Source of the DNA: Gammaproteobacteria bacterium
GTDB taxonomy: Bacteria > Pseudomonadota > Gammaproteobacteria > S012-40
Assembly: GCA_029884425.1 (NCBI GenBank)
Contig: JAOUHV010000030.1
Location: 1 to 36,286 of the forward strand
Reading direction: 5' to 3'
Length of the DNA stretch: 36,286 nucleotides
Made by a program: the position numbers and the translations under genes
Notes under the pieces: generated by a model
What the model saw: only the letters and a program-made list of their open reading frames with translations
What the model was told of the DNA's origin: nothing
Database searches by the model: none
In this document: piece by piece, positions 30,172 through 35,616 of the stretch
Position numbering within the stretch: position 1 is the first letter of the stretch
Layout of the letters: each line of letters opens with the position of its first letter

Positions 30172-30205
30172 AAAATAAAGGTTGGGGGCGTTAACGCCCC
30201 CAACC
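30172..30205 (-). terminator. Terminator of the stator-like operon
   Basis: GGTTGGGGGCG (30180-30190), TTAA loop, CGCCCCCAACC (30195-30205): a perfect 11-pair stem. On minus it is followed by TTTATTTTTGG. It stands 27 bases past the MotA-like stop. Confidence 0.88.
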
Positions 30206-30231
30206 CTATTTGTCCAACCCACAACATCGCC

Positions 30232-31305
30232 TCAACCAGGCCCCTCATCGTCCTCATCCTCATCATCGTCCCTCCTGGCATCAAAGGCTGTTTCAGCCAG
30301 AAAGCCGGTGTAATCCGTACTGCGACGCCCTTGCCGATTGGGGAAACGATCCCGTTCGTGGTTGTACAAAATTTCCAGACTCATTTTGTAGCGGTTGAAT
30401 GCCTGCTGGTAGCGCTCCGCATCCGGAAACAGTGTATTGATATAGTCGATGGCCAATGACACCGGCAGACCAACCAACGAGCTGGCAATCGCCACCGCCG
30501 CGCCACCCTTCAAATCACCGCCTGAGCTCATCGCCAGATAGAATCCCGCAAACGTTCCGATGATGCCCACAAGAATGATCATGAACGGCACACGATTGAG
30601 CACGGCAATAACACTTTCCATGCTGAAAATTTTAAAGACAGTACCGTAGTACGGGTTATTGTCCAACGCGATGTGGGCAATGATTTCGTATTCCGGCGCT
30701 TGCGTGTAATCATTGTCGGAGACTTCATTGACCGTAAGTTCGATCATGTTTTGCACGCCGTCCTGGATACTGAACAACCGCTCAAAAAACGATCCCTTCT
30801 CCGGCTTCTCCGCAATTTTCTTCTCAACTAAAATATTTTCAGTTTCGCGAATAATCTTGCTGGCACGGCCTTCAAGTTCCTTGGCCTCAATCTTCAATCG
30901 TTCAGCTTCCTTGATCCTCGCCCGCAAAACCGGCATATAGGCACTGTCCTTGGTATACATGGACACCGGAACTTTCATCGCGATCTTGGCTACTTTTGGA
31001 TCAAAGTTAGCCGACATGGCAATTTCTGCCTGCTCCCTGAAGCTGTTGGCAAACGTTATCTTTCTCAGACTTTTCTGGGATTTTTTCTTGTATTCAAATA
31101 CCGAATAATAAAATGCCAGGCAGAACTTATTGAGCGCACTGATTTTGTAATGCACCCCAAACTTGAAAATCGTAAAGATGACAAACAACGCCAGTATGCC
31201 GACGACAAAGACATTACCGATCATCTCGTTAGTTAGCGCGATGCCGCTTGCGTAAAATCCGCCAAGCACCAACGACACTATCGATAACAAAAATAGATAT
31301 ATCAT
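30232..31305 (-). CDS. MotA/TolQ/ExbB-like channel protein, ZorA-like
   Basis: 357 residues. Predicted membrane helices are at about 3-23, 27-50, 239-260 and 268-291. The last pair, PFMIILVGIIGTFAGFYLAM and GGAAVAIASSLVGLPVSLAI, has the Gly/Ala/Ser-rich pattern of the MotA/TolQ/ExbB pore, and the 190-residue cytoplasmic loop between helices 2 and 3 is MotA-like. The tail ends in an acidic run (RRDDDEDEDDEGPG). With the MotB/ExbD-like protein encoded 33 bases upstream it should form an ion-driven stator complex in the inner membrane. The ATG at 31305 has a GAGGT site. It lacks the very long cytoplasmic tail of Zorya ZorA, and no ZorC/D/E-like genes are nearby. It was not recognised as any named member of the superfamily. 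Confidence 0.82.
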   Translation of the reverse strand: MIYLFLLSIVSLVLGGFYASGIALTNEMIGNVFVVGILALFVIFTIFKFGVHYKISALNKFCLAFYYSVFEYKKKSQKSLRKITFANSFREQAEIAMSANFDPKVAKIAMKVPVSMYTKDSAYMPVLRARIKEAERLKIEAKELEGRASKIIRETENILVEKKIAEKPEKGSFFERLFSIQDGVQNMIELTVNEVSDNDYTQAPEYEIIAHIALDNNPYYGTVFKIFSMESVIAVLNRVPFMIILVGIIGTFAGFYLAMSSGGDLKGGAAVAIASSLVGLPVSLAIDYINTLFPDAERYQQAFNRYKMSLEILYNHERDRFPNRQGRRSTDYTGFLAETAFDARRDDDEDEDDEGPG

Positions 31306-31338
31306 ATCAACCTCGCTAACCAGCTAGATGCTGCCCAC

Positions 31339-34062
31339 CTACTGTTCCATGTTCATCTGGAACTGCAGCACCGCTGCCTGCTCCTGACTGCAATCATATT
31401 CCACACAATCTGCTTTCTTCCCCACCAGATTTGCTGGCACCGGTTTCGCGTTCAAGAAACCCTGCGCAGACACACCCATGCTGGCTTTAAGCTCTTCGCG
31501 ATACGCAAAGTCCTTCATTGATGGATCATTGAAAATAAAGTTGTACATCGCCATTGCCCGCTCGTTACTCAGCTTGACGTTAAATTTTCGCGCATCTTCG
31601 GTATGAGCAGACTTGTCATTTATGTCAATGTAGCGGCCTTTGTAAATGGGAGAGGTCAATCCGGTTATTTTCAATACACCAACCTGCTTGGCGGCCTCTT
31701 TGTTGCTATAAATACTCTTGGCATATTTTGGAATCATCACCCTCAAGACAGCTTTCATCTCGTCGGTTAGCTCACTGGTTCCCAATTTGAAATAGGATTC
31801 CTGAAAGTGCATTTTCACCTGCCCCGTGCGGCTATCAATTTCGACGGATGAACTATTAAATCCCTTAAAGTTATCCTTCAGCTGGGTAACAATTTTTTCC
31901 TTGGCTTCTTTGGCTTTGAGGAAATCATCAAGCTCGCCTTTGAGCTTGTCCGACTTCGCTTTTTCGTCTCCCAGTTTTTGCTGGAACTTTTCATTCGCAG
32001 TCGCCAATGCCTGCTGCTTCTCACTTTCCAGCTTAGACTTGTTCTTGGCCAGATTTTCAGCAAAGGCCAATTGCGCATCACGCAGTTCTTTTTCAACCTC
32101 GGCTTGCATATCGCGCAAAGCCTTCGCATGATCTTGGCGAGCCCGGTCAAGGGCAGTTTTCTTGGCTGCGGTAGCTTCGGCTTGTTTGGACTGCAAAGCC
32201 TGCTCATACTCGCGCTGCGCTTCAGCCAGTGTTTCTTTGGTTTGCTGACTCAGCGCTTCCTTCTGCGCACGCAGCGCCTGCGAATACGAAGCCTGGGCCT
32301 TGGCTAGCTCGGCTTTGGTTTTATTTGATAACTCTGTTTGTTTTGACGTCAATGCGTCTTCATAGGCGGCCTGAGCCTGCTCAAGCTCTGTACGCCGCTG
32401 GGACTCCAGTGCAGCTCGCTGCGCAGCCAAAGCGTTCATGTGTTGTTGCTTGGCCTGCTCCAGCTCTTTTTGCTTGCTCGCCGTCATTTCATTTTGCTTG
32501 GTCTTCAACGCATCTTCATATTCTGTTTGCGCTTTCGCCAGCTGCTTTTGAGTTTCATCCAGGATGCGTTGCTTTTGCGATTCAAGTGCCTGCTTCTGAG
32601 CCAGAATAGCCTGGTTATGAGCTTGCTGGGCTTTAGCCAATTCCTGCTTTGCCTGGCTGGCTAGCTTGCTTTGATTGCTTGCCAGTGCCTTCTCATATTC
32701 CGATTTGGCCTGCTGCAGCTCTTTGCGTTTTTTCTCTTCAATTTCATTTCGCTGCGCAACCAGCGCGTTCTCACGCTCCTGCGCCACTCGATCCAGGGCT
32801 TGCTGCTTTTCCTCTTCCAGGCGACGCTGCTGATCTTGAATCTTCTGCTCTGACTCGATTTTCAATTGCTGCAGTGCAAGTTGTTTTTCCGAATCCAACG
32901 CACTTTTTTGCGAGGCCAGCGCCACTTCGTAGGCTTGCTTGGCCTGTTTGACTGCGTCCTGTTTTGCCTGAATCAAGCTTTTTTCATTTTTCTTCAATGA
33001 TTCCTGATATTCCTGCTCCGCCGTCAGCAACTGTTGGCGACGCTGCTCCTCCATTGCATTTTTCTGTTCGATTAATGACTTTGAGTATTCCCGCTGCGCC
33101 GTTTCTAGCGCCTGGCGCTTCTCGTCTGCCAGCGATGATTGCTGCTTGCTGAGGGCATCAACGTAGTCTTTTTGGGCCTGCTCAAGCTCTATTTTGCGCT
33201 GAGACTCCATAGCCGTGCGCTGTGCCAGTAACGCCTGACTGTATTCTGTATTGGCCTGCTGCAGTGCTTGTTCTTTTTCCTTATAAAGACTGGATGTTTT
33301 TGACTTGATTGCCTCGTCAAACTCAACCTTGGCCTTTTCAAGTTCCCGCAGCTTCTGCGCCTCCATCACCGTCTTCTGGTTGGTAAGAGCCACGGCATAA
33401 TCCTGCTCGAGCTGGGCGATTTCCTGTTTCTTTTGATTGGCCAACTCGGTTTCTTGCGCCGTCAGCGCCAGATCAAGCTGCTCCATGGCCAGCTTTAGCT
33501 CCTTGCGCTTCTGATTTTCAAGCCGTGTGTGCTGTTCAACCAACTGCTGGTTATACCGCTCAGTGGCATTCGCCAATTCCCGCTGTTTTTGTTCTTCAAA
33601 AACCTTTTCCCGTTCAGCGATGGTCTGCTCGTACTCTTTCTTGGCTTCATCTAAATCTTGCTGGCGTTTCTGTTCCAATTCCTTCTGTTTTTGCTCATGC
33701 TTGTCTTCAATATCAACCACCAGGTTTTCGTACTCATTGGTGACCTTGGATTGTTCCGTTGCCAGCATTTGGGCAAACTTCGCCAACAGCTGTTTGGCCT
33801 GTTCCTCCTGGCGTTGTTTTATGGCCTCCATGGTGATGTTAGATGCCTTGGCCCGCTCAATTCGTCTTTCCGATTCCTCCCGTTCAAATTCAACCTTGGC
33901 TTCGTATTGCTGAATTTTTTCGCTGGTTTCCTGTTGAACCGTCACAATTTCTTCATGGGAATAGAGCATAAATACCAATGCCAAAACCGCGAACAGGTCG
34001 ATCATTGGCACCAACGCTTCCGCAGTTTGTGATTTTTGTTCGGTTTTGGCTTCAGAAAGCAT
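31339..34062 (-). CDS. MotB/ExbD-like protein with giant coiled-coil repeat rod and OmpA-like C-terminus
   Basis: 907 residues from ATG 34062; a GTG at 34134 would give 931. Neither has a good ribosome site, but the ATG leaves a MotB-like short N-tail. A single membrane helix LVPMIDLFAVLALVFMLY (about 17-34) contains a Pro and an Asp (Asp22), matching the ion-binding helix of ExbD/TolR/MotB. Then follows a charged helix and, at 136-684, about 21 tandem 26-residue coiled-coil repeats of pattern ELxxAxxxYxxAL. The C-terminal region (about 736-907) resembles OmpA/MotB peptidoglycan-binding domains (FKLGTSELTDEMKAVL, VLKITGLTSPIY, LSNERAMAMYNFIF), but the usual TD is TSP. It is the first gene of an operon with the MotA-like gene. 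TolA-like rods are a partial analogy. Confidence 0.82.
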   Translation of the reverse strand: MLSEAKTEQKSQTAEALVPMIDLFAVLALVFMLYSHEEIVTVQQETSEKIQQYEAKVEFEREESERRIERAKASNITMEAIKQRQEEQAKQLLAKFAQMLATEQSKVTNEYENLVVDIEDKHEQKQKELEQKRQQDLDEAKKEYEQTIAEREKVFEEQKQRELANATERYNQQLVEQHTRLENQKRKELKLAMEQLDLALTAQETELANQKKQEIAQLEQDYAVALTNQKTVMEAQKLRELEKAKVEFDEAIKSKTSSLYKEKEQALQQANTEYSQALLAQRTAMESQRKIELEQAQKDYVDALSKQQSSLADEKRQALETAQREYSKSLIEQKNAMEEQRRQQLLTAEQEYQESLKKNEKSLIQAKQDAVKQAKQAYEVALASQKSALDSEKQLALQQLKIESEQKIQDQQRRLEEEKQQALDRVAQERENALVAQRNEIEEKKRKELQQAKSEYEKALASNQSKLASQAKQELAKAQQAHNQAILAQKQALESQKQRILDETQKQLAKAQTEYEDALKTKQNEMTASKQKELEQAKQQHMNALAAQRAALESQRRTELEQAQAAYEDALTSKQTELSNKTKAELAKAQASYSQALRAQKEALSQQTKETLAEAQREYEQALQSKQAEATAAKKTALDRARQDHAKALRDMQAEVEKELRDAQLAFAENLAKNKSKLESEKQQALATANEKFQQKLGDEKAKSDKLKGELDDFLKAKEAKEKIVTQLKDNFKGFNSSSVEIDSRTGQVKMHFQESYFKLGTSELTDEMKAVLRVMIPKYAKSIYSNKEAAKQVGVLKITGLTSPIYKGRYIDINDKSAHTEDARKFNVKLSNERAMAMYNFIFNDPSMKDFAYREELKASMGVSAQGFLNAKPVPANLVGKKADCVEYDCSQEQAAVLQFQMNMEQ
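32011..33657 (-). repeat. About 21 tandem 78-bp (26-codon) coding repeats
   Basis: Reading the protein, units such as ELEQAQAAYEDALTSKQTEL and ELAKAQASYSQALRAQKEAL recur every 26 residues. Fourteen units run without interruption, then a seven-residue insertion (ILDETQK), five more units, a 22-residue unit, and one last full unit. Hydrophobic positions are spaced 3-4-4-3-4-4-4, i.e. an 11 plus 15 pattern rather than plain heptads. Units differ enough in DNA to show the array is old. Confidence 0.88.
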
Positions 34063-34115
34063 AACTATGTCACTGTGGTAGAAGTAACGCTCTTTTGTGA
34101 GTAAACGACCAAGAA

Positions 34116-34123
34116 GGGGGGGG
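34116..34123. repeat. G8 homopolymer tract near the rod-protein start
   Basis: Eight G on plus (C8 on the coding strand). It lies between the two possible starts of the rod protein: inside the coding region if GTG 34134 is used, in the leader if ATG 34062 is used. Confidence 0.8.
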
Positions 34124-34134
34124 AGACCTGTCAC

Positions 34135-34414: not shown

Positions 34415-34450
34415 AAAAAGGCCGGCAGGGAAACCCCACCAGCCTTTTTT
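34415..34450 (-). terminator. Terminator of the small lipoprotein gene
   Basis: An imperfect hairpin (AAAAAGGC ... GCCTTTTTT outer arms, GGG/CCC inner arms) with A- and T-runs on either side, 17 bases past the lipoprotein stop. It can work in both directions. Confidence 0.7.
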
Positions 34451-34466
34451 GTGTAACGCTAAACTC

Positions 34467-34691
34467 TTAGTGAGCAGCAGCAGGAGCAGCAGCGTCAGCA
34501 GGAGCAGCTTCAGCAGCTGCGTCAACTGGAGCAGCTTCTTCAACTGGAGCAACGTCAGTAGCTACTGCTTCAGCAGCAGGAGCAGTAGTTTCAGCAACTG
34601 GAGCTGCTGCTTCAGAAGCAGCTTCTTCAGACTTGGAGCAACCAGCCAACAGAGCAACCAGAACGATCATACCAGCAATAGAAATACGCAT
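34467..34691 (-). CDS. Small Ala/Glu-rich lipoprotein
   Basis: 74 residues. The signal sequence RISIAGMIVLVALLAGC ends in a textbook lipobox (LAGC, Cys18). The mature part is SKSEE followed by about 50 residues made almost only of Ala, Glu, Pro, Val, Thr and Asp, an acidic disordered or extended stretch ending in AAAH. It begins at ATG 34691 after GAGGT. Low-complexity lipoproteins like this are common and of unknown role; linking the outer membrane to periplasmic partners is possible but not shown. Its own terminator follows. Confidence 0.75.
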   Translation of the reverse strand: MRISIAGMIVLVALLAGCSKSEEAASEAAAPVAETTAPAAEAVATDVAPVEEAAPVDAAAEAAPADAAAPAAAH

Positions 34692-35037: not shown

Positions 35038-35616
35038 TTACGCCTTACGACGACGCGCTACAACCAGACCGAACAGACCTACACCCAACAGTGCCAGCAC
35101 GCCAGGAGCGGGAACTTCACGCTCGCCAACCACGCCCCACAGTTTGATGTTGGACAGACCGCCGCCGCCACTCTTCTGCAGCTTAGCCAAATCCCAAGTA
35201 CCTGAAGTACTGTCGTCCTTCAGCAACCAAACCCAATAGTCTGGATCGCCACCACCTTGACCAACGTGCATGCTGATAGCACCCTTGGTGAAGTGATTCC
35301 AGAAGCTAGGATCAATCGCCCAAGTACCGCTCGCAGGAATGCTGCCCCAGTTGTTACCAGTAGCAGTGAAGTAGCCATTAGTACCGTTACCGGTCAACTC
35401 ACCCGCTTTGGTCCAGGTATCACCGTAGATGCTACCAACTAGAGAAGCATCTGGATTAGCACTTGAACCGTAGGCACACTGCGCAGCATCAACCAAAGTT
35501 GCTATGCGGTCAGGTGCACCACAGGTATTGCCAGCAACAGGATTTGCCATCACAACGCCTGAAGCAGTCATGGCCAGAGCCACTACAACTGCCTTAGAAA
35601 TCATGCTCGTTTTCAT
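35038..35616 (-). CDS. PEP-CTERM sorting-domain protein
   Basis: 192 residues. The signal peptide is KTSMISKAVVVALAMTASGVVMA. The mature domain is Gly/Ser/Asn/Trp-rich, with two Cys near its start (NTCGAPDR and AAQCAYG). The C-terminus reads VPAPGVLALLGVGLFGLVVA followed by RRRKA: the PEP-type motif (here PAP), a membrane helix and a basic tail that make up the exosortase sorting signal. The protein is expected to be cleaved by an exosortase (EpsH/XrtA type, not in this window) and delivered to the surface or exopolysaccharide matrix. A near-consensus sigma-54 promoter stands upstream. Function beyond that is unknown. Confidence 0.92.
   Translation of the reverse strand: MKTSMISKAVVVALAMTASGVVMANPVAGNTCGAPDRIATLVDAAQCAYGSSANPDASLVGSIYGDTWTKAGELTGNGTNGYFTATGNNWGSIPASGTWAIDPSFWNHFTKGAISMHVGQGGGDPDYWVWLLKDDSTSGTWDLAKLQKSGGGGLSNIKLWGVVGEREVPAPGVLALLGVGLFGLVVARRRKA

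Follow-up and report, generated by a model that had tools for sequence, protein, structure and literature searches.

A probable gammaproteobacterial motor core of the ZorAB branch with a very long, predicted coiled-coil rod

What kind of machine is specified by two adjacent genes, one for a channel-like membrane protein and the other for a membrane-anchored protein that consists mostly of rod? The question is raised by a stretch of 36,286 nt (the window, by which the whole of the DNA analysed is meant), contig JAOUHV010000030.1 of assembly GCA_029884425.1, Gammaproteobacteria bacterium (S012-40). A first-pass annotation of this DNA had singled out two co-directional genes 33 bases apart as an unassigned stator-like pair, encoding a four-helix protein of the MotA/TolQ type (here called A) and a protein with an ExbD/MotB-type helix, a long coiled coil and an OmpA/MotB-like end (here called B). 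The coordinates of the two genes are confirmed (Table 1), and all parts of the pair recur in about 30 independent genomes, represented by 28 loci in named genomes together with members from a further search. The answer that we consider fairly probable, if by no means secure, is that the two genes specify a self-contained membrane motor, driven by ions and belonging to the ZorAB branch, in which B continues as a force-carrying periplasmic shaft.

The nearest known relatives of the pair are ZorA and ZorB, and not MotAB or TolQR, by profile, profile-profile and fold comparison. The C-terminal domain of B matches the PADLOC ZorB1 model at 6.6e-19; in hhalign it reaches ZorB with a probability of 98 (E 1.5e-13) and MotB with 1.4%; its profile match in the PDB is ZorB 8vvi (8.5e-4), and its sole significant Foldseek matches are chains of the same structure (E 1.4e-4). 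The OmpA/MotB-like end thus stands, with ZorB as its closest counterpart. Its match to the Pfam OmpA family is weak (23 of 24 B members, best 0.0031), and on the NCBIfam ZorB2 equivalog model it scores 24.4 bits against a cut-off of 400 bits. The ZorB residues that have been shown to bind peptidoglycan lie in the motifs GHTS and LSxxR and in a C-terminal Arg pair (PMC11890865); B retains the Ser of the first motif, within a shared T-S, and the Leu and Arg of the second.

The channel protein has the four membrane segments ascribed to it, by hydropathy over 24 aligned members, with a loop of ~180 residues between helices 2 and 3. GIIGTFAGF in helix 3, S275 and S276 in helix 4, and Thr251 are invariant across 24 relatives, so that the GxxGTxxG of helix 3 and the polar Thr/Ser ring that characterize the MotA/TolQ/ExbB superfamily are present in the family; GxxGTFxG and a conserved Ser pair are likewise found in the A subunit of ZorAB (PDB 8qyd, 8vvi, 8vvn). 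The first-pass annotation had let its reading hang on a MotA/ExbB profile match for A. Taken literally, for the single sequence, such a match is absent from Pfam and NCBIfam, and phmmer retrieves none among PDB sequences; the family as a whole reaches further. The ZorA2 model is reached by 17 of the 24 relatives (best 8.6e-4), and hhalign gives 93% for ZorA, 10.5% for the host MotA and 5.8% for the host TolQ/ExbB, figures that are single comparisons with small profiles. Against the PDB the family profile yields weak matches only, ZorA 8vvn appearing at 0.066 among unrelated proteins. PF01618 does not match the window A and is reached by one member in 24, at 0.25; the family profile does, however, find the A protein of a cousin clade (described below) at 6.6e-16, and this cousin scores 24.7 bits on PF01618, above the cut-off of 22.9, which closes the chain of homology to that family.

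To have descended from the Zorya branch is not to be a Zorya system: the pair is a ZorAB-branch motor core and not the system itself, since neither a ZorA tail nor effectors nor an equivalog-level score was found. A ends ~65 residues past helix 4 in the window, and at most about 120 past it in all 24 members; it is without the cytoplasmic tail of ZorA, which is needed for defence (PMC11890865). No ZorC-, ZorD- or ZorE-type gene is present among the 90 flanking open reading frames (ORFs) of the family, and models of ZorE and ZorC1 find nothing in the host genome, ZorD alone not having been searched genome-wide. The positive controls for these searches were E. coli for ZorE and genome G071 for ZorC, in which model PDLC00622 detects its target; it replaced the ZorC1 model PDLC00614, for which there was no positive control. 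The gene order, B before A, is the reverse of that in Zorya, and the rod of 313-689 residues contrasts with a span of 0 to ~100 residues in ZorB. The description of the pair as a Zorya-like core without its effectors is the best statement of its ancestry, ZorA and ZorB being its nearest relatives on every test, and the proposal that it stands alone, outside any defence island, is supported.

Several matches near the family or its relatives deserve separate mention. Matches to 'mads' models among the neighbours come from at most three of the 90 flanking genes and do not constitute a system; a single neighbour matches ZorB models, most probably the OmpA-domain protein L019:5795-6802, which lies beside one locus only. 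Locus L074 (G071:C259:22000-38000) holds a tandem of Zorya type I (ZorA1, ZorB1, ZorC1-like) and type II (ZorA2, ZorB2) in one island. At L071:7465-9383, L072:6486-8198 and L073:1585-3264, genes for ZorA2-like proteins whose tails are shortened (331-405 aa) lie beside a ZorB2-like gene and a third gene; these are possible compact Zorya II variants.

The rod is real, and it is longer than the coiled coil of over 550 residues and ~80 nm first proposed: 689 residues, or ~102 nm as a straight helix. It contains no Pro, no Cys and only two Gly, both within its last 30 residues, and is accordingly an uninterrupted helix former, predicted by AlphaFold to be helical apart from gaps at 249-268, 389-396, 460-472 and 553-611. 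These gaps were considered as hinges and set aside, their pLDDT being mostly <50 and helix breakers being absent from them; folding back of the rod was likewise judged unlikely for a run of >600 residues with no Pro and, before the last 30, no Gly. Hydrophobic power rises to 46 at a period of 3.709, the highest value in 500 shuffles being 10.3, and shifting the rod against itself by 26 or 52 residues gives an identity of 0.25-0.26, as against 0.105 +/- 0.012 in shuffles. Repeats of 26 residues over 7 turns (11 + 15 residues) are the signature of right-handed coiled coils such as rotary ATPase stalks (PMC6131620), and a right-handed coiled coil with a period of ~3.71 is what the sequence of the rod predicts. 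The comparison with the b2 peripheral stalk of ATP synthase, a right-handed coiled coil of 11/15-residue repeats in an ion-driven rotary machine (PMC6131620), does not extend to sequence kinship, and the rod is several times longer and would lie in the periplasm. The rod gene shows no tandem repeat at the DNA level, which excludes a recent tandem duplication as its origin at that level and implies that the protein-level repeat is old. Pooled over 22 relatives, the periodicity peaks at 3.712 with little power at 3.5; taken singly, the shortest rods have no peak above shuffles. Rods of the relatives span 46-102 nm if straight, and the length differences among closely related rods cluster at 7, 11, 15, 18, 22, 29, 37 and 44 residues, that is, at whole helical turns, with an 11-residue ladder holding 9 of the 12 distinct differences (P about 8e-4 if they are independent). 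Length thus drifts while register is kept, which is the behavior of a structural element and not of a fixed ruler.

On which side of the membrane does this rod lie? B has a single membrane helix, preceded by a short N-terminus and of the ExbD/TolR/MotB type; the Asp originally noticed in it, Asp22, is shared by all 22 full-length relatives. Beyond the helix, every member has acidic residues. The sole Cys residues of B, C886 and C891, are both invariant and both located in the end domain, forming a C-x4-C motif that is an addition relative to ZorB; the pair suggests a disulphide and hence a periplasmic location of the end of B, and the acidic stretch points the same way. B would then have a cytoplasmic N-terminus and a periplasmic rod. 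The opposite arrangement, with B inverted and its rod in the cytoplasm in the manner of a ZorA tail, could appeal to the similar length of rod and ZorA tails and to a weak N-terminal charge bias in the window B, but it is extremely improbable: an OmpA-type domain with a conserved Cys pair fits the periplasm, the acidic residues beyond the helix are universal in the family, and all characterized B subunits have their N-termini inside.

Resemblance to the other ion-driven motors is more general. With MotAB and PomAB the pair shares a four-helix A with a large cytoplasmic loop, and a B with an Asp helix and an OmpA-type end, but the linker of B is a long coiled coil where proteins of the MotB type have a glycine-rich plug-linker. 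The host possesses three MotAB/PomAB-like pairs of its own (contigs C5, C11 and C33), as well as TolQR and ExbB proteins, and the rod pair is consequently an extra motor. With TolQRA-Pal and ExbBD-TonB it shares an Asp helix like that of ExbD and TolR. The nearest known periplasmic shaft is that of TolA, whose helical domain II, 110-335 residues in length, also exceeds the periplasm in gammaproteobacteria (PMC12204202). The claim that such a rod is without parallel in known pairs accordingly holds in scale, and not in kind: beside TolA, the ZorB1 of L074 has a coil of ~100 residues at the same place. In the rod pair, however, it is the axle subunit that provides the shaft, which is one to two times the length of the longest TolA domain II, and no target domain of the TolA or TonB type is present; searches of neighbours and domains found neither tol/ton gene context nor a TolR/ExbD periplasmic domain. 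One might nevertheless think of a Tol-like envelope stabilizer, acting at division or at sites of outer-membrane detachment, in which the job of TolA is done by the rod and that of Pal by the OmpA-type end, both fused to B. The ExbD/TolR character of the B helix and an E/K/A/Q-rich rod resembling TolA domain II speak for this idea, as does a two-gene unit that requires no partner in a host with a separate TolQR. That A is closer to ZorA than to TolQ, that TolB, Pal and TolA are unlinked, and that the pair is absent from most gammaproteobacteria sampled make it unlikely.

The rod gene precedes the channel gene in 26 of 26 relatives with enough flanking DNA, which answers the call of the first-pass annotation for rod and channel pairs in other genomes, and no neighbour gene is common to the loci; the pair is a conserved two-gene cassette. 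Pairwise distances of A and B correlate with r 0.96, consistent with their evolving in step, although shared ancestry alone could give this value. The rod genes at L027:7205-8960 and L039:4505-5800 are split or truncated, through assembly error or decay. The carrier genomes are gammaproteobacterial, most of them from uncultured and marine organisms, among them an Olavius symbiont, Woeseiaceae and Pseudohongiella, with one record titled Myxococcales and another titled Burkholderiales. An even sample of genomes of the class yields 5 carriers in 369, two of the five being distant matches. In one genus, 16 of 31 genomes have a pair of the window type (strong matches) and at least 21 of the same 31 have the cousin pair, in which A is ~299 aa and B 767-973 aa, with the gene order, rod and C-x4-C of the window type. 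Cousin loci L069:4410-7771 and L118-L121 lie beside genes for a Na/Pi-cotransporter-like protein and a phosphonate-type ABC transporter (names read by eye). A literature search, largely confined to papers outside subscription, found no description of such a pair.

This distribution bears on a further reading, in which the pair provides the sensor-motor core for a Zorya-type anti-phage system with unlinked or unrecognized effectors, the rod sensing phage disturbance of the wall and switching the motor on. Patchy spread and changing chromosomal context are what one expects of a defence gene, and ZorA and ZorB are after all the nearest relatives. The cousin pair, on the other hand, occupies a conserved site between metabolic genes, a stable housekeeping position in genus g228, while the window type is not constant in its site; no relative of the pair turned up in viral, phage and plasmid collections; and the missing tail and effectors described above tell against defence as well. 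We regard this reading as distinctly unlikely.

How might the favoured device, a motor with a periplasmic shaft, work? As in the solved relatives, a B dimer would have its membrane helices enclosed by five A subunits, and the flow of ions through the Asp22/Thr251/Ser275-276 site would turn or strain A against B. The rod would form a parallel two-stranded periplasmic shaft through which the motor applies torque or tension to a target in the envelope, at a distance that far exceeds the periplasm's width; it would probably run along the wall, or else have excess reach of the kind envisaged for TolA. Because A lacks a cytoplasmic tail and the pair has no linked effector genes, the output is more likely to pass through the shaft, as envelope force or wall-tension sensing, than through a cytoplasmic effector. 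Transmission of force along the cell wall, which the first-pass annotation had raised, may then be what the pair does. To our knowledge, force through a shaft along the cell wall is known in no 5:2 motor, and the characterized 5:2 motors known to us all either work inside the periplasm's span or push on a cytoplasmic tail. A motor with a long wall-directed shaft in hosts from marine sediment and symbioses also brings to mind surface locomotion or gliding, the shaft moving along the wall; with no genes for an adhesin, track or outer-membrane partner nearby, and flagellar-type MotAB sets already in the host, this is very improbable.

A number of observations weigh against the shaft-bearing motor. 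The predicted model of A is poor (pLDDT 59), and while the best 25 rows of its structural comparison are all ZorA, ExbB, TolQ or PomA, their Z of ~9 is within the chance range for helical bundles. The 5:2 assembly of A and B is put forward by homology only. The N-terminus of the window B carries no net positive charge, and the neighbouring genes link the pair to no function. In departure from ZorB, B has Leu or Met in place of the His of GHTS and other residues in place of the C-terminal Arg pair; with half of the tested ZorB residues replaced, peptidoglycan binding by the end domain is uncertain and wall anchoring may be absent. The cousin rods have a period of 3.54, which is left-handed, so that handedness of the coil is no general requirement, and the right-handed coil as an essential conserved trait has been dropped. 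A broader proposition, that these are two clades, in one marine gammaproteobacterial genus, of a stand-alone motor family that left or predates phage defence and runs a 50-100 nm periplasmic shaft along the wall, we put forward tentatively, as a possibility short of the probable.

In the window, the rod gene is transcribed first. Its longest ORF opens at GTG 34134, a start that the relatives lack and that was rejected; the start they have in common is ATG 34062 (MLSEAK...). Terminator-like hairpins flank both genes, which consequently look like one transcription unit. Downstream of the pair are genes for a monomeric isocitrate dehydrogenase and a VanZ-like protein. Adjoining the rod gene upstream is a 74-aa ORF for a small Ala/Glu-rich lipoprotein (34467-34691, minus strand; MRISIAGMIVLVALLAGCSKSEEAAS...) with a strong terminator-like hairpin at its end, and also upstream, near the motor genes, is the gene of a PEP-CTERM surface protein with a signal peptide (35038-35616, minus strand).

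Table 1. Positions in the window of the rod and channel genes, their parts and the flanking hairpins
Feature	Position	Strand	Basis
Rod gene (B subunit, 907 aa)	31339..34062	-	ORF from ATG 34062; relatives in ~30 genomes
Channel gene (A subunit, 357 aa, four membrane helices)	30232..31305	-	ORF; aligned relatives
Membrane helix of B, VPMIDLFAVLALVFMLY, invariant Asp22 (codon 33997-33999)	33958..34017	-	22 full-length relatives
Rod, B residues 35-723, predicted right-handed-type coiled coil, period 3.71, 26/52-residue repeat	31894..33960	-	composition, periodicity, predicted helix
C-terminal OmpA/ZorB-type domain, Cys886 and Cys891, GLTS 801-804, LSxxR 831-835	31342..31893	-	PADLOC, hhalign, Foldseek, alignments
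Helices 3-4 of A, GIIGTFAGF and S275/S276, ion-path motif of MotA/TolQ/ExbB/ZorA type	30433..30627	-	
Large cytoplasmic loop of A, helices 2-3, ~180 aa, helical	30598..31149	-	hydropathy, model
Terminator-like hairpin, strong, 16 pairs, T-rich tail, upstream of rod gene	34415..34449	-	
Terminator-like hairpin, strong, 13 pairs, T-rich tail, after channel gene	30178..30207	-	

If the proposed motor is real, an axle extended as a stiff periplasmic shaft of greater length than the periplasm would call for a rethinking of how 5:2 motors are coupled to the envelope. Since the pair has none of the known effectors, it also offers a natural point of comparison for the way in which the ZorAB core was brought into defence, and its size, two genes, makes it directly testable.

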